Below are positions 46,014-57,516 of a DNA stretch of 64,000 nucleotides, one piece after another. A model generated the notes under the pieces. It was not told the origin of the DNA, made no database searches, and was given only the letters and a program-made list of their open reading frames with translations. Source of the DNA: Terriglobia bacterium (GTDB lineage: Bacteria; Acidobacteriota; Terriglobia; Terriglobales; Acidobacteriaceae); NCBI GenBank assembly GCA_020073665.1, contig JAIQEU010000016.1, positions 124,001-188,000 of the forward strand, written 5' to 3'. The position numbers were made by a program, and so were the translations under genes. Numbering within the stretch: the stretch's first letter is position 1; every line of letters starts with the position of its first letter.

Positions 46014-48449
46014 CTACTCGTAGCGCAGCGCCAAGACGGGATCGGTACGGGTAGCTCTGCGAGCCGGGACGTAGCATGCCAGGAAGGCGGTAGCTGCCAG
46101 CAGCAGCGCGGCGCCGGTGAAGGCAAACGGGTCGGCGGCGCGGGTGTCGAACAGCAGGGTGGCGAGCAGGCGTGTGAGCCCGAACGACGCCGCTACACCG
46201 AGAGTGACTCCCACCAGGGTAAGGCCCATGCCGTGGCCCACGACCAGTTTCAGGATGTGGCGGGGCTGCGCACCCAGCGCCATGCGGATCCCCATCTCCT
46301 GGCGCCGCTGGCTCACCGAATAAGCCATCACGGCGTAAATGCCGACCGCAGCAAGCAGCAGGGCTAGTCCGGCAAAAACCCCCACGAATTGCATGATGAG
46401 CCGAGGCTGAGCGGCGGAATTGGCGACGACCTCGTCCATGCTCAGAATGCCGGAGACCGGCATAGTCGGATCAAGTTCAGCAAACTTCTGCCGGATCGCG
46501 TTCACCAGGGGCGTGGGATCGGATTGCGAGCGCACCACCAGTGTCGCCGACGGCCAGGGCGCCTGGGCCATGGGGAGAAACATTTGCTCGGTACTAGGAG
46601 TGCCGAGCGAGTTGAACCTGGCGTCGGCAACCACTCCGACCACTTCGCGTGGAATTTTGTTGCGCGAATTCATCAGATGTTTCCCAATGGGATCCTGGTT
46701 GGGCCAGTAGCGGTCTGCCAAACTCTGGTTCACGATGGCGATGTTGGTATTCCCCGCTACGTCCTGGTCGGTGAAGAAGCGGCCACGGATCAGCGGCGTA
46801 TGCATCGCCCGAAAATAATCGGGGGTGACTCGATCCTCGGCGATCACCGGATCCTTGCCGATTCCCTGGCAAGCGATACCCTCGGGACAGAAGAAGACGA
46901 ATATGGTTGTGTTAGCCAAAGGCACGCTGCTGGCGAAACCGGCGGACTGGACCGCAGGAACGTTTTTCACCCGTATCAACAGTTGCTGGTAGAACTGGGC
47001 CTGCTGCTCCGGCGTCGAGTAATGGCTGGCAGGCAATGTGATGGGAAAAGTCATCACACGATGCGACTCGAATCCTGGATTCACTTCCATCAGGCGCGCG
47101 AAACTTTTGATCAGCAGTCCAGCTCCGGTCATCAAGACCAGGGCCACGGCGACTTCCGCCACCACCAGCAGCGAACGGAACCGGTTGCGGGCAGAGCCGT
47201 CAGAAGAGCCGCGTCCACCTTCTTTCAGAGTGTCGTGCAAGTCGCGTCCAGAAATTTGCCAGGCCGGAACGAGTCCGAAGCCAAGACCTGTTAGCGTGCA
47301 TAGCGCGAGGGTGAACAAGAGCGCAGTGCCGTCCACAGTGGTTTGTTCAAGGCGGGGCACCGCCCCCGGCGTGATGAGACGCAGCAGAGGTACCAGCGCA
47401 GCGGCCAGCAATACTCCCAAGACGCCTCCCAGCAACGACAGCACCACGCTTTCACTGAGCAACTGGCGAATAAGACGTGCGCGCGAGGCGCCTAAGGCCT
47501 TGCGAATGGCGATTTCCTTCTGTCGAACGGTAGCGCGTACCAGCAGCAAGCTGGCCACATTGGCGCAGGCAATCAGCAAAACGAAGCCCACCGCAGCCAG
47601 CAGCACCAGCAGCGAGGGGCGGAGGGTTCCAACCAGGTTTTGCTCCAAGGAGGCTACTGACAGGCCGTACTTGAAGTCGGCGTTACTGCCAAACTGCTGG
47701 CGGTAGTTGGCATTGAGGGTGTCGAGTTCAGCTTGGGCGCTGGCCACGGTTTCTGCCGGCCGCAGTCGTCCTAGAAAGAACAGGTAGCCAGCTCCGCTGT
47801 GGACCTGCGCCTGGTTCAGGAAATCGATTTCGAAAATTCGTGGAAGCCAGATTTGCGGCTCCGGGAACTGCAGCGGGAAATGGAACCTGGGTGGCAGGAT
47901 GCCCACCACAGTCACACTCTTGCCATCCAGTAGCAGAGGCTTTCCGATCAGGCTGGGGTCGCCGCCGAAATGGCTTTGCCAGAAGCCGTCGGTAACCACG
48001 GCGACGTCGCGCCCGCCGGGCTGGTCTTCTTCGGGAAGGAATCCGCGGCCAAGTGCGGGGGCGATTCCCAAAGTACGAAACAGGTCGAGCGAAGCGTGGG
48101 CGGCGGGGACGGGCTCGGGCTCGCGCCCGGTGACCAGGCCCACCGTCAGCGGATAGTACGCTGCGGAAGCTTCGAGCGTCCGGCTCTGGTCGCGGATGGC
48201 GTCGAACTTGGTAAACGAAACCTGGATCCCGGTGAAGGCGCGGTTCACGGTGTCCGCCTGGGACACGCTGATTAAGCGGGCCGAATCCGGGAAGGGAAGC
48301 GGGCGGAGCAGGACGGCATTCACCACGCTGAAGATGGCGGTGTTGGCCCCAATGCCGAGCGCCAGGGTGAGCACCGCGACTACTGTGAAGCCCGGGGTCT
48401 TCCAGAGCACGCGGCAGCCGTAGCGGATGTCTTGCCAGGTCTCTTCCAT
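46014..48449 (-). CDS. MacB-like ABC permease, ADOP type
   Basis: A protein of 811 residues. The start METTWQD-like segment ([20 protein letters not shown]) and [20 protein letters not shown] are the hallmark of acidobacterial duplicated orphan permeases. Two MacB-type halves each carry a periplasmic MacB_PCD domain and FtsX membrane helices: [20 protein letters not shown] for the first set and [20 protein letters not shown] for the second. The short coupling motif [20 protein letters not shown] precedes helix 3, and its equivalent [20 protein letters not shown] is in the second half. There is no ATPase gene next to it, which explains the name orphan. Substrate unknown; related to macrolide/peptide export or lipoprotein handling. 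Confidence 0.9.
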
Positions 48450-48738: not shown

Positions 48739-50205
48739 ATGAAACGCATTCGCACTCGGTCCCTAGCTGTTTTGTTGGGTCTAGCTTTCTTGACCACTGC
48801 CAAAGCACAAAACATCACTCAGCTGTTCGGCTTTCCTTGCCCGAATCAGCAATTCGGTACCTGTCCGCAGGGCTACCGGCCGGATGTGCTGATTCAGGCC
48901 TCAGACGGAAATTTTTATGGTACCGCCCAGCTCACTACCCAGGGTACCTCCAACCCGCAGGGTGGCACGGTGTTCAAAATCACACCCGCGGGTCAATTCA
49001 CGCTGCTATTTACGTTCACCCACAATCTCAGTGGGAATTATGTGAACGGCGATCAGCCTGCGACCGCCCTGGTGGAGGGCAACGACGGGTTTCTTTACGG
49101 CAGCACGTTTACCGGCGGCACCAACAATGCCGGCGTGCTATTCAGAATCGGCAAGAACGGCAAGGGGTTCAAGGTGGTCCATAACTTCTGCTCCTCTGAC
49201 AACTGCGCCGACGGCAATTTGCCGATTGCCCTCCTCCTGGGACAAGACGGCAACTTCTACGGGGCCACGGAGTTTGGCGGGTCCAACGACGCGAACTGCC
49301 AGATTCACGGCGGTTGCGGGACGATTTTCCGCTTCACTCCACCCAGTACCCTCACCACGCTGTTTGTGTTTGACGGCAGCCAGAATGTGGGTGCGAGCCC
49401 AATCGGCTTGACACAGGGCGCAGACGGGAATTTCTATGGGGTGGGTGGAGGACAAATTTTCCGCTTTACCTCCGCCGGACAGTTCACCGTGCTGCAGGAC
49501 TTCCCTAAAGTGAACGGGATCCTTCCCACCAATGCCACCAGTGGACTCTTCCAGGCGTCCAACGGAATCCTCTACGGCGCGCTTACTACGTACGCTATCG
49601 ATCAGCTTCAGTTCTACGAGATCAACCCGTCGGGCAGCGGGTTCCTGGAGTTTCCATCGTTCGGCGACCGCTCCGGTCTGGGGCCTTCGGTACCGCGGTT
49701 GATTCAAGCCTCGGATGGAAATCTGTGGGACGCTGTCGACGTCATAGGAAATGGCGGCGGCAGCGTTATTGCTATGTCGCCGGCGAGCGGCGCGGTGCTC
49801 AGGAGCTTCGCTTTTACAGGTGCGACTGGGGAGACTCCTGAGGCCTCAGTGGTCCAAGCCGCCGACGGCAAGCTTTTCGGCACTACCATTCTGGGCGGGA
49901 AGGTGGCGAAAGGCAAAGTTGCCAGCGGTACGGTCTGGACCCTGGACGCCGGCCTGGCAGCCCCGCCAGCGGCGATCGCAAACTTCGCTCCATCCAGCGG
50001 AGGCGCAGGTTCAACCGTGACCATTCGCGGCAACCACTTTATTGGAACGACGGCGGTAACCTTCAACGGCGTCAGCGCCGCATTTAAGGTGCTGACTGTG
50101 AACTTCATCACGGCTACCGTGCCGGCAGGCGCAAGCAGCGGGCCGATTGCGGTGACCAACCCCGGAGGTACGACGGACAGCAGTGGCCAATTCACTGCGC
50201 AGTAG
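48739..50205 (+). CDS. Secreted TIGR03803-type propeller protein with IPT/TIG domain
   Basis: A protein of 488 residues with a signal peptide (MKRIRTRSLAVLLGLAFLTT). Repeats of about 50 residues carry LIQASDGNFYG, GTVFKITPAGQFTLLFTF, FLYGSTFTGGTNNAGVLFRI, and similar units, the TIGR03803 pattern. From about residue 405, IANFAPSSGGAGSTVTIRGN begins an IPT/TIG immunoglobulin-like domain that ends the protein. AAGGAG precedes the ATG. It is exported, possibly with a carbohydrate or adhesion role. It is the last host gene before the integrated element. Confidence 0.85.
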   Translation: MKRIRTRSLAVLLGLAFLTTAKAQNITQLFGFPCPNQQFGTCPQGYRPDVLIQASDGNFYGTAQLTTQGTSNPQGGTVFKITPAGQFTLLFTFTHNLSGNYVNGDQPATALVEGNDGFLYGSTFTGGTNNAGVLFRIGKNGKGFKVVHNFCSSDNCADGNLPIALLLGQDGNFYGATEFGGSNDANCQIHGGCGTIFRFTPPSTLTTLFVFDGSQNVGASPIGLTQGADGNFYGVGGGQIFRFTSAGQFTVLQDFPKVNGILPTNATSGLFQASNGILYGALTTYAIDQLQFYEINPSGSGFLEFPSFGDRSGLGPSVPRLIQASDGNLWDAVDVIGNGGGSVIAMSPASGAVLRSFAFTGATGETPEASVVQAADGKLFGTTILGGKVAKGKVASGTVWTLDAGLAAPPAAIANFAPSSGGAGSTVTIRGNHFIGTTAVTFNGVSAAFKVLTVNFITATVPAGASSGPIAVTNPGGTTDSSGQFTAQ

Positions 50206-50315: not shown

Positions 50316-50335
50316 TGGCGGAGAGGGAGGGATTC
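50316..50335. other. Attachment site, distal copy
   Basis: A 20-bp perfect copy of the tRNA-Ser 3' end. The bases on either side do not match, so 20 bp is the exact shared core. Confidence 0.85.
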
Positions 50336-50648
50336 TCTTTCGGCCACTTCTAGCAAGTCCTGATGATTCCTACTGTTAGCGAAAATAGCCTGTGTTCATG
50401 CGGGTTGCAAGCACTTTCCTAACTTCCGTTCCTGTTTCTACAGTTTCTCTAGTTTCCTCTGGTTCCCTCTAAAACGGTATCACTGGTATCAGTGTCCGAG
50501 CACTATTGTGATTCGACATTTCCGAGCAATAGCGCCACGCGGGAAGCCCTGCAAAGTTCCTTGAGAGGACAGAAATCACGGGTGTATCAAGTGGTTTTCG
50601 GGGACGGACCGCAATCCAGAGGCGGGAGGGAGTAAAATAACCCGCGCA
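50336..50648. other. Element left end without gene
   Basis: A 313-bp stretch inside the element. It holds two GGTATCA words (50476 and 50485) that match words near the other end. No reading frame is convincing. Confidence 0.5.
50476..50495. promoter_or_regulatory. Possible integrase arm-type sites (left)
   Basis: GGTATCA at 50476-50482 and 50485-50491. The 13-mer CTGGTATCAGTGT (50483-50495) is repeated exactly at 57375-57387 near the other end. Confidence 0.45.
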
Positions 50649-51296
50649 ATGAACTATACACCCCCTCAGCACCGCAAGCCTGCGTTTCATTGTCCGCATC
50701 CATCTTGTAATGTGTATGCCAAGCAAACATGGGGTCCGGGATGTTGGGTACCTACCACTTCCCATGAGATCCTGAACCGTCTTAGTGTAGCTCGCTGCGA
50801 CCACTGTCAACATCTGTCTTTCTGGGTAGATGAGAAATTGTTGTTCCCCGTGAGTAGGACCACACCTCCACCGCATCCTGACATTCCAGAGTCCCTTAAG
50901 GCCGACTTTGAAGAGGCTCGTGCGGTGTTCCAAGATTCGCCCCGGAGCAGCGCAGCGCTTTTGAGGCTAGCGATTCAGAAGTTGTGCATAGCACTGGGAT
51001 CGCCCGGAAAGAATCTCAATGAAGACATCGGGGGACTCGTAGAGCAGGGTTTGCCCTTTCAGGTTCAGCGGTCACTCGACATCGTTAGAGTGGTTGGAAA
51101 CAATCAAGTTCACCCCGGCGTCTTGGACGTTCGGGACGATCCATCAATAGCGATGACGCTGTTTGAACTGGTCAATATTATTGTTGAAGATCGAATTGCT
51201 CGGCCCAAGCAAGTCGAAGCATTGTATGCAAAGCTCCCCGAAGGTGCCCGCAAGCAGATTGAAGAGCGCGATGCCAAGTCTAAGACTCAGCCCTAG
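50649..51296 (+). CDS. DUF4145-domain protein with zinc finger
   Basis: A protein of 215 residues. An N-terminal knuckle (FHCPHPSCNVYAKQTW, then ARCDHCQHLSFWV) supplies four cysteines for a zinc finger. The DUF4145 domain follows: IPESLKADFEEARAVFQDSP, SAALLRLAIQKLCIALG, VGNNQVHPGVLDV. DUF4145 occurs alone and fused to restriction-endonuclease-like and other defence proteins, so a defence or nucleic-acid role is possible but unproven. It is the first gene of the element's left side and reads rightward alone. Confidence 0.75.
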   Translation: MNYTPPQHRKPAFHCPHPSCNVYAKQTWGPGCWVPTTSHEILNRLSVARCDHCQHLSFWVDEKLLFPVSRTTPPPHPDIPESLKADFEEARAVFQDSPRSSAALLRLAIQKLCIALGSPGKNLNEDIGGLVEQGLPFQVQRSLDIVRVVGNNQVHPGVLDVRDDPSIAMTLFELVNIIVEDRIARPKQVEALYAKLPEGARKQIEERDAKSKTQP

Positions 51297-51406
51297 GTAC
51301 TGAAACGAGATTCCTGCGCCTGCGAGCAGTCTTCAACTACCTGCCATTCACCTATCGTTCGCACTGCCTTGCGTGTGACGGTGACACAGAGGACCTGCTG
51401 AACAGA

Positions 51407-51796
51407 TCACAGCGATAGGCGAATCCGCAAGAGGGAATCCATCGTCGCCAAGCCTAGCTCTTCCAGCTCCAAAGCACAGAGCGCAGCGGCTACCTTGTCG
51501 GTGCCTTCGCCGCTGTCATCCGGCCTCTTCACTTTTCCCTGTTCCACGGCATGGTTAATTGCTGTGGTCATCTGCTCATCACTAAGACCACACTCCATGA
51601 GATAGTTGACGAGCCCAAAAAACGTCAAGCTATTTCCCAAACGTTGCCTTTCCTCTGTAGTGGCAGGATAGTTCCAGATGCGGTTTACCAAATCCAACAC
51701 CTCAGCCGTGTACTTGTCCCGTTCAATTCCCTCCTGCATGGCCTCTTTTTGCAGCCTCATGCGCTCTGCGAGATATTCCAGCTTAGTTGTGTCCAT
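51407..51796 (-). CDS. Hypothetical protein of integrative element
   Basis: A protein of 129 residues from the ATG at 51796, which has GGGGAGG upstream. It is predicted all-helical (LEYLAERMRLQKEAMQEGIE; TEERQRLGNSLTFFGLVNYL) and acidic near the C-terminus. No family is recognised. Its start overlaps the 3' end of the serine recombinase gene by 14 nt, so the two are probably one transcript. Confidence 0.55.
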   Translation of the reverse strand: MDTTKLEYLAERMRLQKEAMQEGIERDKYTAEVLDLVNRIWNYPATTEERQRLGNSLTFFGLVNYLMECGLSDEQMTTAINHAVEQGKVKRPDDSGEGTDKVAAALCALELEELGLATMDSLLRIRLSL

Positions 51797-52715
51797 TACT
51801 GCCTCCCCTTTTTCGAAGGATGTTCCGAATCGTTTGCGTCTTGAACTCGCAGCCGTACCGCGTACGCGTCCCTTCCGCGTTGAGTGTCTTGGCAATCGCG
51901 TAGCTGCTCACGCCGTCGGCACTCATCTGCCGAATCCGAGTGACTACCGCCCGCTCTGCGTCGAACTCGTGTGACGGGTGTTCACCATAGGGCCAGCGTC
52001 CATCTACGCGACGTTGACCTCTCCACTGCCTTTTACCAGCCGCTAGGCGGGACACAGTAGCGTCCCTGTCCATCTCGGCTAGCATCCCGTTGACTCCACC
52101 CATCACACTCCCGCCTAAGTCTGTGCCAGTCGCATCCATCACGGTGACGCCATTGTCCCTGCACATCCCGATGAACGACCAGAACGCAGGCTGTGTCCTT
52201 CCGATGCGCTTGGCGTCGTAGCAGAGCACAGTCTTCACGCCATCCGCTAGCAGGGCCGCGATGAGCAGCTTCCCCTGTGGCCGTGCGTGCATCGGCAGTT
52301 TCCCCGTCACTCCATCGTCCGCGTACTCGGCGACGATCTCAAGTGACGAACGTGCGGCAAACGACTTGCAGGAATCCCGCTGGACTGGTAGACCAGCTTT
52401 GTCCCGCCCGTCATCACCGCTGGTTCTCAGGTACAAGTAAGCCTTCATTGTTTCCCCTTTCCAGTTCTGTGATGTACTCCCGCGCCAGTCTGTCTCGCTC
52501 ATCCTTCGCGGTTGTCTTGGTTGCCAGTTGCACCCGTACGCCTGCAACGGCTGCACGGGTGCTGGCTCAGGCAGTCCCAAGTCGGCATGAGTGAAACTCA
52601 CTTCTGTCCAGTGTCCTTCGCCAGTGCGGGTGTACTTGTACCGTCCACTCACCATGCGCCGTTGCAGAGTTTTCGGTGAGATGCCGATGAGGGCACATGC
52701 TTCGCGTTTATTCAT
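51783..52715 (-). CDS. Serine recombinase (resolvase family)
   Basis: A protein of 310 residues if started at 52715. The N-terminus (MNKREACALIGISPKTLQRR) looks like a small helix-turn-helix, followed by a linker. The catalytic domain starts at about residue 90, KAYLYLRTSGDDGRDKAGLP, with the presumed nucleophile Ser in RTSGDD, and continues with CYDAKRIGRTQPAFWSFIGM and GMLAEMDRDATVSRLAAGKR. A C-terminal Recombinase-like region (QMSADGVSSYAIAKTLNAEG) is the DNA-binding part. Alternatively, translation starts at the Met at about 52448. Its role in an element that also has a tyrosine integrase is unclear. Confidence 0.8.
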   Translation of the reverse strand: MNKREACALIGISPKTLQRRMVSGRYKYTRTGEGHWTEVSFTHADLGLPEPAPVQPLQAYGCNWQPRQPRRMSETDWRGSTSQNWKGETMKAYLYLRTSGDDGRDKAGLPVQRDSCKSFAARSSLEIVAEYADDGVTGKLPMHARPQGKLLIAALLADGVKTVLCYDAKRIGRTQPAFWSFIGMCRDNGVTVMDATGTDLGGSVMGGVNGMLAEMDRDATVSRLAAGKRQWRGQRRVDGRWPYGEHPSHEFDAERAVVTRIRQMSADGVSSYAIAKTLNAEGTRTRYGCEFKTQTIRNILRKRGGSNGHN

Positions 52716-53161
52716 TCTGTGTGCTCCGTAAAATTAAGATCAACGGACAGGGCCAGCCCAAGGAGACTAAGAGGGCCAGCCCTGCCGTGTTTCCGAAGTG
52801 GGAGGCTCAAGCCCATCGGAAAAATCTCGCTGACTCTGTGCGAGCATGGATAGTGCAGCGCAGAGCCAGCGTCCTGCCAAGGAGAAGAGGCAGGGAACTT
52901 GTTTACGCTCCGCGTGTTCCTGTCTCACCAGCCCTCGCCCCGCTGACGCCTGACTTCATGAGGCCGATACCGACGCCTGTGCGGTCGGACACTCCAACCG
53001 AGGTCACTTGGTGGAAGCGTCTGCTATTCCAAGAACGAAAGCGGCACGGACAGGTAGAGGGCATTCTCACGCGGCACGTTGAGAGCCTTCAACAAAGCAA
53101 CGACGATCTGCGAATGCTGATCGTAAAGATGACAGCCGACCGTCTGACGGAGAAGAAATGA
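52697..53161 (+). CDS. Hypothetical protein of integrative element
   Basis: A protein of 154 residues. Basic, Arg/Pro-rich N-terminal half and a helical C-terminal half (HGQVEGILTRHVESLQQSND). The 5' end overlaps the divergent recombinase gene by 19 nt if this start is used; a later start is possible. It overlaps the next gene by 4 nt (ATGA), so they are translationally coupled. No family is recognised. Confidence 0.5.
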   Translation: MLRVYSFCVLRKIKINGQGQPKETKRASPAVFPKWEAQAHRKNLADSVRAWIVQRRASVLPRRRGRELVYAPRVPVSPALAPLTPDFMRPIPTPVRSDTPTEVTWWKRLLFQERKRHGQVEGILTRHVESLQQSNDDLRMLIVKMTADRLTEKK

Positions 53162-53676
53162 TGGCACAAGAATTAGACCCCAAGCTGTACAACGGCGTCC
53201 TTGACGCATTCCACGCCCACGGCATCAAACCTCTAGACGCAACCATCGGGACCGTGGTCGAGACACTGGCAACGAAGTACGGCGTCACCGCCTCGATCAG
53301 TGACCTAGGCCATCTGGAACTGACGCAGAACGGCTCACCCGCCGTGCTGAGCACTGTCTTGGAGGCTTACCGCAAGAAGCACGGTGAGCAGTTCGTCGCA
53401 GACCCACGCAGAGATGACGTGGTATCGCGTCAGGACTTGGAGCGCGGCACTCCACAGGAGATCGTGCAGGCGAAGGCGAAGTTCATCGGTATGCACTCCG
53501 TGGAGGCTTTCGAGAACCTGCCCAAGACACGGGATGAGGCACAGCGCAAGGCTGCTGTCCCAAGCATGGACATGACCAAGGACGAGTATCTGAGCCTGAG
53601 TCTCAAAGACCGCAGCCGTCTGGTCGGCAAGATTGGCCCTGAAGCAATCGGAAAGATCATGCAGCGCAGAGGCTAG
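53158..53676 (+). CDS. Hypothetical, phage-like protein of integrative element
   Basis: A protein of 172 residues. The acidic N-terminal half has VLDAFHAHGIKPLDATIGTV; the C-terminal half has EYLSLSLKDRSRLVGKIGPE and AIGKIMQRRG. The pattern DEYLSLSLKDR is reminiscent of phage structural or scaffold-like small proteins, but the resemblance is weak. Coupled by a 4-nt overlap to the gene before it. Confidence 0.5.
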   Translation: MMAQELDPKLYNGVLDAFHAHGIKPLDATIGTVVETLATKYGVTASISDLGHLELTQNGSPAVLSTVLEAYRKKHGEQFVADPRRDDVVSRQDLERGTPQEIVQAKAKFIGMHSVEAFENLPKTRDEAQRKAAVPSMDMTKDEYLSLSLKDRSRLVGKIGPEAIGKIMQRRG

Positions 53677-54014
53677 GCTGCTTTCTCGACCGAGAAGTGC
53701 TCATGGTACTGCTCGCTAGTGATCCGGGGAACATCCACGGTCACCCCGGCCAACAGCACTTCTCCCCTTCTGCATTCCAGATCGCCCTCCAGCCGGACGC
53801 GGAACAGCCTCGGTGCTACCTCGATGATGGTGCCGACGCTGCTGTGCTGCAAGTAGTCGTCGAACCACGAGACCTTAACCCGGTCCCCTTCAGATATTTC
53901 GCTATCCAACTTGAGCCTGCTATTGAATGTGGAGTCAGCTACGTTTGCTCCACATTGTTCGCAGTGCCCAAAAGCATCGTCTGTCAGGTGTACGCAAGTA
54001 TCATCCACTGGCAT
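53673..54014 (-). CDS. Hypothetical zinc-knuckle protein of integrative element
   Basis: A protein of 113 residues. The N-terminus holds Cys and His ligands (CVHLTDDAFGHCEQCGAN), a probable single zinc site. The C-terminal half is a small SH3-like beta barrel, with DRVKVSWFDDYLQHSSVGTI and FRVRLEGDLECRRGEVLL. The start is ambiguous: ATG at 54014 lies very close to GGGAGG, and a GTG at 54008 has better spacing. Its 3' end overlaps the convergent gene by 4 nt. Function unknown. Confidence 0.55.
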   Translation of the reverse strand: MPVDDTCVHLTDDAFGHCEQCGANVADSTFNSRLKLDSEISEGDRVKVSWFDDYLQHSSVGTIIEVAPRLFRVRLEGDLECRRGEVLLAGVTVDVPRITSEQYHEHFSVEKAA

Positions 54015-54074
54015 TCCTCCCTTTGATTGTAACAAACCGAGTTTTATCGAAATTCAACGAATCAGGAGATTCAA

Positions 54075-54395
54075 ATGAGCACACAGCAACCGAATGACCT
54101 ACAGAGCCAGAGCAACGCACCTGTAGTCGAAGCAAAGAACACCAACAACATGACCGTACCAGCACCAGCCGACGTGCAGAACTTCCAAGCACACAAGGTA
54201 GACAGGCAAGACGAGTCCGCAGACTTCTCGACTGAGCAGTTCAAGAACGCACCCGGCCCACGTGGCGTCAGTCGGGTGCTTCTCTTGCTCAATGTGTCTC
54301 CCCTTGGGTGCGAGTCTCTCACGCTCGAATTGTCGTGCGCACACTATACGCACCACTCTCACCGATGCGTACACCGTACGCACACCGAAATTTAG
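54075..54395 (+). CDS. Hypothetical protein of integrative element
   Basis: A protein of 106 residues. CAGGAGA precedes the ATG. The first 60 residues are hydrophilic and Asn/Gln/Glu-rich (MSTQQPNDLQSQSNAPVVEA). The remainder (VLLLLNVSPLGCESLTLELS with several His) is of very different composition, which suggests a frameshift or run-on past the original end. No family is recognised. Confidence 0.45.
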   Translation: MSTQQPNDLQSQSNAPVVEAKNTNNMTVPAPADVQNFQAHKVDRQDESADFSTEQFKNAPGPRGVSRVLLLLNVSPLGCESLTLELSCAHYTHHSHRCVHRTHTEI

Positions 54396-54404
54396 AAAGA
54401 CACC

Positions 54405-54659
54405 ATGAACTCTTACTCAAAACCAATATCCGTACGACAGGGTGACCTTGCAACCCTCGAACTGATGTGGGCTGCGTCGTTCCCTAGCTTCCCCTGCCCG
54501 GAAGAAAAATACTTGCGAGGATGGCTCAACACTCAGCACGTCTCCATCGTCTGCTCTGCCATCGAACATGCTTCACAGTCCCACGAACGTTTTCAGAATG
54601 GCGCACACGCTGGACGTGTGGTCTCTATCCTCCTCAGAAATGTGAGATTCGCAGAATGA
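54405..54659 (+). CDS. Hypothetical protein of integrative element
   Basis: A protein of 84 residues, starting MNSYSKPISVRQGDLATLEL with a Trp/Phe/Pro-rich middle. It ends in a 4-nt ATGA overlap with the next gene, which supports both as real. No family is recognised. Confidence 0.5.
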   Translation: MNSYSKPISVRQGDLATLELMWAASFPSFPCPEEKYLRGWLNTQHVSIVCSAIEHASQSHERFQNGAHAGRVVSILLRNVRFAE

Positions 54660-55036
54660 GCGCACCGAACAAAGAAAAACGTTTAATCAAAGAGATGGAA
54701 AAGTCCTACGCTGCAAACCGTGCGCTGCTCGTGGAGTCCATGAACGAATGTTCCAAGGGCACCAGTTCGTACAGGCAGCACGTCGCAGACCTTGACCGCC
54801 TAGACCGGGCACACCGTGATGAGATGGCAGCGCGCGGAGTCGTACCTGAGAACTTGGGACAGGTCGCACAGCAGCACTTCGTGTACATCAGCCACGTGTC
54901 TACCGTCCCGGCCAACCGCGAAGAGCTTGCCAAGATACTCGGGAAGCAGATGGCGAAGGCGTGTGAGAACCTGCACTTGGCTGAAGAGGATGAGGCAGCC
55001 CGTCAGGAACTGGAAGCAGACTTCCCCGCGAAGTAA
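54656..55036 (+). CDS. Hypothetical protein of integrative element
   Basis: A protein of 126 residues from the ATG at 54656. It is predicted all-helical and highly charged (LIKEMEKSYAANRALLVESM; ACENLHLAEEDEAARQELEA). It overlaps the previous gene by 4 nt, and the start was chosen for that coupling. It ends immediately before the convergent gene stop. No family is recognised. Confidence 0.55.
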   Translation: MSAPNKEKRLIKEMEKSYAANRALLVESMNECSKGTSSYRQHVADLDRLDRAHRDEMAARGVVPENLGQVAQQHFVYISHVSTVPANREELAKILGKQMAKACENLHLAEEDEAARQELEADFPAK

Positions 55037-55483
55037 CTAGCGGCCTGAGGGAAAGTCCGACCTGAGAATGGGGGACGAGTACGCATCGGCACCCGCACTC
55101 ACTTTTACGGATTCTCCGCAAACGAGACATGCACGATATTCGGCTGTGCCGCTCCAAAACGGCTCTCCCATTTGCGCCTCGATATTCTTGGCGAAGCACT
55201 TCATACAGAGAGGCTGGTCGGGCCGTGACTTGTGGTATTTGAACGGCATACGAAATTCGTACTCGTCACTCTTGAAGCGTAGCTTATCTCGAAGATAGCG
55301 GTTCTGGTCTTCGAGTTCCGAGGCCGAATGCTTGAGTTCACGCACTTGGCTCAGTATCTCGTCAACCTTCTGCTGCGCATCGCGGTCCTTCAGAGTTTTC
55401 AGAAGCTCGAAGAGCTTTGTCGAGACCTCACCCGCAGTCTTTGCGATGGTCCATACAGTTGTAGCGGCTGTAACAGGTTCCAT
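55037..55483 (-). CDS. Coiled-coil protein with zinc knuckles, integrative element
   Basis: A protein of 148 residues. The N-terminal 75 residues form a heptad-like helix (STKLFELLKTLKDRDAQQKV; ELKHSASELEDQNRYLRDKL). The C-terminal part carries two Cys-x2-Cys pairs, CMKCFAKN and CLVCGESV, so a zinc site is likely. It ends in a Ser-rich tail. Similar small proteins are common and uncharacterised. Convergent with the preceding gene. Confidence 0.6.
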   Translation of the reverse strand: MEPVTAATTVWTIAKTAGEVSTKLFELLKTLKDRDAQQKVDEILSQVRELKHSASELEDQNRYLRDKLRFKSDEYEFRMPFKYHKSRPDQPLCMKCFAKNIEAQMGEPFWSGTAEYRACLVCGESVKVSAGADAYSSPILRSDFPSGR

Positions 55484-55515
55484 GAGTGTGATTGTACTCC
55501 AAGAACCTTGATCTT

Positions 55516-55716
55516 ATGACCTCACACCCATCTCTAGCTGACCAGATCGAAAAGACTGGTCATGCTTTGACAGCCGACGAACTTGCCGACGTGCTGTCAG
55601 TTTCTCGCATCACGATTTTCAAGCAGGCAAAGGCAGGGCGCATCCCATCGTTCCGAGTGGGGACCTGTGTCCGGTTTTGTCCTCACACAGTGGCGCAGTG
55701 GCTCAGGACGCAGTAG
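55516..55716 (+). CDS. Excisionase-like helix-turn-helix protein
   Basis: A protein of 66 residues. The segment ALTADELADVLSVSRITIFK followed by QAKAGRIPSFRVGTCVRFCP is the winged HTH_17/MerR-like DNA-binding domain of excisionases (Xis/AlpA). Being located in an integrase-bearing element, it could control excision or gene expression of the element. It is divergent from the coiled-coil gene. Confidence 0.75.
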   Translation: MTSHPSLADQIEKTGHALTADELADVLSVSRITIFKQAKAGRIPSFRVGTCVRFCPHTVAQWLRTQ

Positions 55717-55723
55717 ATGCCCT

Positions 55724-55918
55724 TTAGGGTGTGTCTATGATGACTTCGGCGAGCTTCATCTTCTCCAGCAGACGCATTAGATCATCTGTCTGTTGGTGGG
55801 GAATGGCCTTGTCAAAGATCAGGGTGACAAATGAGCGACCACCACAAGCAATATGAACGCCTCTAGTCACTCCGTCGTCTACGCACTTCACGTCCGCTAC
55901 CTCTAGTTTTTTCAACAT
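55724..55918 (-). CDS. Hypothetical small protein of integrative element
   Basis: A protein of 64 residues, mixed alpha/beta (KCVDDGVTRGVHIACGGRSF; DDLMRLLEKMKLAEVIIDTP). It lies 7 bp past the excisionase-like gene on the opposite strand. No family is recognised; I consider it plausible on length and composition only. Confidence 0.4.
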   Translation of the reverse strand: MLKKLEVADVKCVDDGVTRGVHIACGGRSFVTLIFDKAIPHQQTDDLMRLLEKMKLAEVIIDTP

Positions 55919-56013
55919 GCGAGAAATTCTAGCACCAGCAGGTGCAGACTGGGGGCTGCGAACAATGTAAGTCCTCCTTCGGGCGTATACTCTTCTGTTT
56001 GAGGGAGGAACAA

Positions 56014-56193
56014 ATGAACGAACTGCCTATCTTAGCTGCTATCCTCACCGTCGCTGCCCAACAACGTCCCGAGCGACAACAAACACAGAGAACGCAGACG
56101 CACAACCTACATACGCAGATCATGACGGACTACAAGGAGTTCCTGAGCCATCTGACCACACACCATCCCGAGCTAATTAAGAAGACAGCGTAA
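56014..56193 (+). CDS. Hypothetical small protein of integrative element
   Basis: A protein of 59 residues. The ATG at 56014 has a good GGGAGGA ribosome-binding site. Gln/Thr-rich middle (AAQQRPERQQTQRTQTHNLH) and a charged helical tail. Convergent with the integrase gene, whose stop is 18 bp away. No family is recognised. Confidence 0.45.
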   Translation: MNELPILAAILTVAAQQRPERQQTQRTQTHNLHTQIMTDYKEFLSHLTTHHPELIKKTA

Positions 56194-56210
56194 AGGCGAA
56201 TTTCTTCGCG

Positions 56211-57356
56211 CTACGCGAAAATCTCATTCACCTTTTCGCGTACCTGCTGGCTGCGTGAGGGTTTGAGATAGCGCATCGTTGACTCCATGTCGCTGTGACC
56301 AAGCCACTGCTGTACTGTGCGCAGATCGACGCCAGCCCACAGTGACCACGTTGCGAACGTTGCACGGAACTTGTGAAGCCAGAAACCATCCTTGTCCAGC
56401 TTCGCACGTTCGGCAACGGCCTTCAGGCAGTCGAGGAAGTCTAGCTTAGGCTTGCATCCCGCAGTAGGGAACACAAGACCGCACGTCTTGTCAGACTTCG
56501 CCTTCAGTGCCTTCAGGCTCTTCACGAGTTTCGCAGGGATGGGAATCTCACGTTCCTTGTACGCCTTTGGAGTCCATCCACGGTCGGGCTTGTGGCTGAC
56601 TCTCACCGTGCCGTGCGCGAAGTTCACATCCGACCAGTACGTGTACATCACTTCCTGTTCACGCATCCCGGTCATCAGGAAGAACTCGAACCAGAGCCGT
56701 TCCTGTGCATCGCAGGCTTTGAAGAGCTTTTTCAGTTCTTCCTTTTCGTAGACCTCTGGCTCTTCCTCCACGAATCGCGGCCAGTCGTTTTTGTTGACCA
56801 GTCCCCGAATGCCTTGCGCCTTCAGGAAGGTCATCAGGTTCTCAAACTTGTTATAGACGCTGCGTGGTGCCTGCTCTTTGTCGTCCCGCAGGAAGGCAGA
56901 GAACTTCAGCAGGTCTTTGCGGTCAACGTCTGCAAGATTGATCTTGTGGCAGGACTCCACGAAGTACGACAGAGCCGTGCTGTACGCTGCGAACGTCTTG
57001 GGCTTTTTGCTGAGCTTGGTTTCCTCAAGGTACTCGGCAACCGATACCGCCAGCGACGTGTGACCGTTCTGGTCCTCTGGCACCACGGAGACACCGTTGT
57101 TCACTGCATTGAGTTCGGCCTCTTTGCGCAGCCGTCTCGCACTGGCGTCCGCTGCATCCTTGCCTACTGACAGCCGTACACGCTTGCCGCCTTCGCGCCA
57201 CTCAAGGTAGTACGCGCCTTCGGGATGCCGTTCTGGATTACCGTCGATGAGAACCACGTCTGGCTTGACGCGGCCATTTGCAGACAGCACCACAGGGCAG
57301 TAGCGCGGCCCCTTGCTGGTTTGAACTCTCTTTGTGACGTTGACTTCGCGGTTCAT
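56211..57356 (-). CDS. int: Tyrosine recombinase (phage-type integrase)
   Basis: A protein of 381 residues. An N-terminal arm-binding region, a SAM-like core-binding domain (about residues 100-190, SLAVSVAEYLEETKLSKKPK) and the catalytic domain. Catalytic residues: Arg in MTGMREQEVMYTYWSDV, Lys in the beta hairpin near TVRVSHKPDRG, His/Arg in WLHKFRATFATW, His in QWLGHSDMESTMRYL, with the Tyr nucleophile in MRYLKPS. It is the gene closest to the tRNA-Ser end and reads away from it. It mediates integration at the tRNA 3' end. Confidence 0.92.
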   Translation of the reverse strand: MNREVNVTKRVQTSKGPRYCPVVLSANGRVKPDVVLIDGNPERHPEGAYYLEWREGGKRVRLSVGKDAADASARRLRKEAELNAVNNGVSVVPEDQNGHTSLAVSVAEYLEETKLSKKPKTFAAYSTALSYFVESCHKINLADVDRKDLLKFSAFLRDDKEQAPRSVYNKFENLMTFLKAQGIRGLVNKNDWPRFVEEEPEVYEKEELKKLFKACDAQERLWFEFFLMTGMREQEVMYTYWSDVNFAHGTVRVSHKPDRGWTPKAYKEREIPIPAKLVKSLKALKAKSDKTCGLVFPTAGCKPKLDFLDCLKAVAERAKLDKDGFWLHKFRATFATWSLWAGVDLRTVQQWLGHSDMESTMRYLKPSRSQQVREKVNEIFA

Positions 57357-57374
57357 CGGTGACCCTTTCTGATT

Positions 57375-57395
57375 CTGGTATCAGTGTAGGTATCA
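57375..57395. promoter_or_regulatory. Possible integrase arm-type sites (right)
   Basis: GGTATCA at 57377-57383 and 57389-57395, in the gap between the integrase start and the tRNA. CTGGTATCAGTGT here equals the word at 50483-50495. The integrase promoter must also lie here. Confidence 0.45.
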
Positions 57396-57426
57396 CCGGG
57401 ACGTAAGTGCTAGATTACAAAGGTAA

Positions 57427-57446
57427 TGGCGGAGAGGGAGGGATTC
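57427..57446. other. Attachment site, tRNA copy
   Basis: The 20 bp at the 3' end of the tRNA-Ser gene, identical to 50316-50335. It includes the acceptor strand, CCA and part of the T arm. Confidence 0.85.
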
Positions 57447-57516
57447 GAACCCCCGATACCCGTTAAGGTATGTCCGCTTTCGAGGCGGATCGTTTCAACC
57501 ACTCACGCACCTCTCC
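57427..57516 (-). tRNA. tRNA-Ser (anticodon CGA), with encoded CCA
   Basis: On the minus strand the sequence starts GGAGAGG and ends CCTCTCCGCCA, so the acceptor stem is a perfect 7 bp, with discriminator G and an encoded CCA. The anticodon loop CTCGAAA gives anticodon CGA (UCG codons) and the long variable arm and 90-nt length are those of tRNA-Ser. The T arm reads GGTTCGAATCCC. The last 20 nt of the gene form one copy of the element's attachment repeat. Confidence 0.95.

Follow-up and report, generated by a model that had tools for sequence, protein, structure and literature searches.

A complete integrative element of 7.1 kb very probably occupies positions 50316-57446 of the window (the whole 64-kb stretch of DNA analyzed here), combining a tRNA-Ser integrase, co-varying arm sites and a RAZR/PD-T7-4 homologue as cargo. 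The element, from a soil acidobacterium, is most likely a defence-carrying integrative island, and possibly a phage satellite.

The ends are marked by a perfect 20-bp direct repeat, TGGCGGAGAGGGAGGGATTC, which occurs exactly at 50316-50335 and 57427-57446. A single tRNA gene was detected in the window by ARAGORN, tRNA-Ser(CGA) at 57427-57516 on the minus strand; the right copy of the repeat is therefore the 3' end of this gene. This agrees with the preliminary description of this DNA, in which such a repeat, with one copy forming the tRNA end, was said to bound 7.1 kb. The repeat unit measures 7111 bp from start to start. Two 20-mers are exactly repeated in the 64-kb window, the other being a 7-bp tandem repeat at 663, and from base composition 1.9e-7 copies of the 20-bp repeat would be expected per 64 kb. 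Additional core copies with fewer than six mismatches were not found within the window, the next closest sequences differing at six positions. Since the point of exchange cannot be placed inside the 20 bp, boundaries called exact are exact to within 20 bp. The G+C content is lower inside the element (0.549) than in the flanks (0.595-0.599). The features are as follows.

50316-50335, unstranded: distal attachment copy (displaced tRNA 3' end), identical to the tRNA end over 20 bp
50476-50491, minus: two distal arm sites TGATACC, read as GGTATCA at 50476-50482 and 50485-50491, 156 and 147 bp from the core
50649-51296, plus: DUF4145 protein, RAZR/PD-T7-4 homologue by sequence, 215 aa (PADLOC, PDB 9y9c, Pfam DUF4145)
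51407-51799, minus: 130-aa ORF, no relatives found
51783-52448, minus: small serine recombinase, resolvase-like, 221 aa (Pfam Resolvase, E 2.2e-18)
52697-53161, plus: 154-aa ORF, C-terminus common to L087
53158-53676, plus: 172-aa backbone protein without a fold match, also in L082, L087 and L150
53673-54035, minus: 120-aa ORF, no assigned function
54075-54395, plus: 106-aa ORF, no assigned function
54405-54659, plus: 84-aa ORF, weak likeness (E 0.0067) to the gene that follows the 172-aa homologue in L150
54656-55036, plus: 126-aa ORF, no assigned function
55037-55483, minus: 148-aa protein, phrog_1244 (a family without known function), E 2.9e-7
55516-55716, plus: excisionase-type HTH protein, 66 aa (NCBIfam TIGR01764, above cut-off)
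55724-55918, minus: 64-aa ORF, 73% identical homologue in L150
55942-56193, plus: 83-aa ORF, no assigned function
56211-57356, minus: tyrosine integrase, 381 aa, catalytic residues intact (Pfam, motifs)
57377-57395, minus: two integrase-side arm sites TGATACC, read as GGTATCA at 57377-57383 and 57389-57395, co-varying with the distal pair
57427-57446, unstranded: integrase-side attachment copy within the tRNA, exact repeat
57427-57516, minus: tRNA-Ser(CGA), intact, CCA encoded (ARAGORN)

Read from the tRNA inward, the gene order is integrase, small ORFs, excisionase-type HTH protein, ORFs without relatives, 172-aa protein, serine recombinase and DUF4145 protein. Most internal ORFs have no relatives, and some may therefore not be genes. 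The integrase starts 70 bp from the tRNA end, in the adjoining position reported previously; it matches Pfam Phage_integrase (E 2.4e-24) and keeps all R/K/HxxR/H/Y catalytic motifs. Homologues of the 66-aa HTH protein adjoin the integrase in 14 loci, and the TIGR01764 match suggests that this protein is probably the excisionase. Comparison of the ORFs with Pfam, PHROGs and NCBIfam revealed no replication, packaging, conjugation or capsid genes, as had been noted from the sequence for all but packaging, and no relaxase or conjugation match was found in Pfam. What had been overlooked is the putative defence gene at the distal end, the main cargo.

The DUF4145 protein matches PD-T7-4 of PADLOC over its full length (E 1.9e-84, positions 3-210 of 211) and also matches Pfam DUF4145. 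The only related solved chain is that of the RAZR:GP77 complex (PDB 9y9c, E 2.1e-58, 24 chains). Residues C15, C20, C50 and C53 and the motif RVxGNNxVHPG are invariant in four homologues; in the window protein, the cysteines precede the HEPN-superfamily domain. The R..H motif, RVVGNNQVH, has seven intervening residues, one more than the usual HEPN spacing of Rx4-6H. RAZR, a ring-activated zinc-finger RNase, presumably senses phage assembly proteins, in keeping with the title of the PDB entry; a search for an account of RAZR in the open literature found none. DUF4145 has been assigned to the HEPN superfamily (PMC3710099), and PD-T7-4 was selected as an anti-phage system (PMC9519451). The AlphaFold model of the protein is weak (pLDDT 66), and the RAZR case therefore rests on sequence. 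By that measure, the protein is a full-length PD-T7-4/RAZR homologue with a predicted zinc finger in the HEPN RNase superfamily, and it would be expected to act in anti-phage defence in its acidobacterial host. In a search of 100 relatives, the gene occurred in just three genomes, including that of the window, which marks it as cargo. Homologues are also encoded by phages, namely, a filamentous Vibrio phage, whose depositors annotate PD-T7-4, and temperate Streptococcus phages. Another homologue (66%) lies 0.5 kb from a XerD-like recombinase at L151:7333-9620 (genome G037).

The ends of the element can be located independently of the 20-bp repeat. The TGATACC sites lie at +51 and +63 from the core on the integrase side and at -156 and -147 on the far side, and related elements with different cargo have four 7-bp arm sites at matching offsets. 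In each of seven attachment regions, one variant is present at all four sites: TGATACC in the window, G028, G023 and L087, TGATACT in L082, TGCTACC in L141, and TGATACG in L142. The distal pair pattern occurs six times in 2.2 Mb of two-strand sequence, five times at 154-157 bp from a core; the sixth pair, in L093, is not backed by a core, and an arm pair therefore does not always mark a usable end. At L065, the variants differ between the sides, as would be expected for two elements in tandem. The terminal 180 bp at the far end show 71-78% identity to L141, L158, G028 and L087. Arm sites and alike far ends fix both boundaries, and comparison with relatives confirms the boundaries first proposed. 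They also pair the ends of elements of 9.3, 9.8, 19.8 and 26.6 kb. The two 7-bp pairs, which flank the core, are probably integrase-binding sites.

Related integrases were found at 56 further loci in Acidobacteriota and, in the search of relatives, in 26 of the 100 genomes; the family and its elements are widespread and little described. Nearly all close relatives adjoin a tRNA-Ser gene (anticodon CGA, TGA, GGA or GCT), approximately 70-110 bp from its end. On a maximum-likelihood integrase tree, with good support for only 6 of 26 inner branches, the anticodon changes 17 times, compared to a mean of 17.6 after shuffling (as low in 93 of 200 shuffles), and is thus unclustered. The tRNA-Pro users, a distant branch with 47-50% identity, form one clade on the tree. 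Judging from its tRNA neighbors, the family uses all four tRNA-Ser isoacceptor genes regardless of anticodon. The core common to the family is GAATCCC(T/A/C)C(C/T)CTCTCCGCCA. In some cases, the core beside a family integrase is not part of a tRNA, as happens in tandem arrays (L087, L106 and L089). The preliminary description had named element genes at non-tRNA places as a finding that would speak against its reading; when this was checked, the integrase-carrying relatives had the integrase directly beside tRNA-Ser. The window's own genome (G000) also encodes a 40% identical integrase adjoining tRNA-Ser(GGA) (L058, contig C16) and two further, distant integrases (C50 and C58). At L063:7470-9754 (G007), two identical tRNA-Ser(CGA) genes lie 2.2 kb apart in direct order.

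The tRNA-Ser(CGA) gene is unoccupied in 11 relatives from other genera, where the 15-25 kb that follow contain no integrase of the family. These relatives have a single tRNA copy, as anticipated earlier for an empty site, and no second core. Relatives conserve the right flank (from tadA and ferredoxin onward), and in genome G049 the tRNA has the left-flank gene (46014-48449) on one side and the right-flank genes on the other. A 978-bp insertion separates an 18/20 core copy from the tRNA in G049; it has no integrase and contains an NYN nuclease gene that is also listed by PADLOC. In G048, the integrase at the same site is frameshifted. The tRNA-Ser(CGA) site is a recurrent target. Next to the left repeat, a 488-aa gene (48739-50205) is missing at the G049 site and has a distant relative in integrase locus L110. 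This gene is possibly an older insertion; as part of the island it was rejected for want of an outer core copy.

The backbone of the element is shared with other loci. In L082 and L087, the closest elements, integrase, 172-aa protein, serine recombinase and arm-site layout are shared with the window, and phage-type HNH endonucleases are present. The element at L150:4223-13154, in tRNA-Asn(GTT), carries another integrase together with an 81% identical serine recombinase, a 34% identical 172-aa protein and the 73% identical 64-aa ORF. This indicates that integrase and backbone are exchangeable modules. The serine recombinase begins MKAYLYLRTSG, and its open frame runs upstream to 52715 with an HTH-like stretch; it is 62% identical in L087, rare overall (3 of 398 genomes), and without relatives among the viral contigs. 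For the 172-aa protein (model pLDDT 79), a fold search gave no match, and no relative of its family was found among phage records or viral contigs. What lies between the far end and the serine recombinase is variable; here this slot holds the RAZR/PD-T7-4 homologue. Elsewhere, family cargo includes a C5 methyltransferase with Vsr and SIR2 plus an NTPase. The former, in a 19.8-kb element (L052/L126, G023:C40), is accompanied by the candidate defence gene PDC-M41A followed by DUF5131 and by a DnaG-type zinc-finger protein. The SIR2-like protein and NTPase, at L094:18019-20912 downstream of a family integrase at tRNA-Ser(GCT), resemble candidate defence systems. An arm-site-paired element of 26.6 kb at tRNA-Ser(GGA) (L049/L123/L124, G028:C10) encodes COX1 and COX3 of cytochrome c oxidase and a UbiA-type prenyltransferase, an unusual cargo for an integrative element.

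In two viral contigs, L141 and L142, the attachment region has the same layout in attP form: its two ends lie next to each other, as they would in a circular molecule. L141 (37 kb) has an 80% identical integrase, and its far-end 180 bp are 78% identical to those of the window; L142 (91 kb, integrase 56%) encodes a primase-helicase, a ribonucleotide reductase and an exonuclease and is clearly a phage. Five L141 proteins tested against PHROGs gave no phage-family match, and two terminase families had no match in either contig, so L141 is taken as a phage from its record and gene content only. With phage genes in L142 but negative results for L141 and the terminases, a satellite life is possible. 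The element would then excise and be packaged by a helper phage, probably one with the same attachment system. The HNH endonucleases of L082 and L087, a size that fits satellites, and a backbone also found in a tRNA-Asn element are in line with this reading. However, no terminase, capsid-remodelling, primase or cos-like gene was recognized in the window element with Pfam, PHROGs and NCBIfam, and the backbone protein has no phage match; we regard a satellite as a possibility of lesser weight. Slightly more speculative still is the wider proposal that acidobacterial temperate phages of the L141/L142 type have a family of miniature satellites to which this element belongs. Its members would share the phages' attachment system, enter serine tRNA genes of any kind and be equipped against competing phages with interchangeable defences, RAZR among them.

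Two other readings concern the state and extent of the element. A decayed prophage or island remnant that is no longer mobile would account for the many small ORFs without relatives, and decayed copies exist at the same site in G048 and G049. However, here the integrase, the excisionase candidate, the two cores and the four arm sites are all intact. Decay therefore seems improbable, and the original view of a complete tRNA-targeted tyrosine-integrase element, with co-varying arm sites at both ends, is supported. It is highly improbable that the left repeat arose by chance or is an older copy, with the true island larger and including 48739-50205. The absence of the 488-aa gene at the G049 site and its relative in L110 would fit this, but the window has no more core copies at the above threshold, and the arm sites inside the 50316 copy sit at the fixed offset of the family.

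For the preferred reading, a defence-carrying integrative island, the following scheme is proposed. The integrase, bound at the arm-site pairs, would recombine the tRNA gene with an attP core whose sequence equals the final 20 nt of tRNA-Ser. After integration, the tRNA would be intact again next to the integrase, and the 20 nt displaced from it would remain at the opposite end; the 66-aa HTH protein would probably act as excisionase. Excision and transfer are predicted. By homology, the RAZR/PD-T7-4 protein would detect phage assembly proteins and provide abortive defence through RNase activity, a benefit to the host that may help keep the element.

Acidobacteriota are abundant in soils, and their mobile elements are poorly described. 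This element offers verified ends, a large comparison family, anticodon-free tRNA-Ser targeting, and a putative defence cargo with a structurally studied relative. In addition, co-varying arm sites provide a simple way to pair element ends in fragmented metagenomes.

Compared to PD-T7-4/RAZR (PMC9519451; PDB 9y9c), the cargo protein shows full-length similarity, four conserved cysteines, the DUF4145 domain and an association with integrases. It differs in its acidobacterial host and in the position of its gene at the end away from the integrase, and its function is putative. L082, L087 and L150, all from Acidobacteriota, share the 172-aa backbone protein and the small serine recombinase but differ in cargo, and L150 also in its integrase and tRNA-Asn(GTT) site. 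Small satellites and minimal islands (P4-like, PICI) are similarly compact, with an integrase, an excisionase and a defence gene; unlike these, the element has no recognized packaging, capsid-control or primase gene. As in tRNA-integrated islands with tyrosine integrases (Islander, PMC4383910), the integrase lies by the tRNA 3' end and a displaced tRNA fragment at the far end. In contrast to those islands, the integrase family uses all four tRNA-Ser isoacceptor genes, and the ends are common to elements ranging from about 9 to 27 kb as well as to two viral contigs. The general arrangement is thus ordinary, whereas isoacceptor-independent targeting, co-varying arms and the RAZR cargo go beyond the routine.
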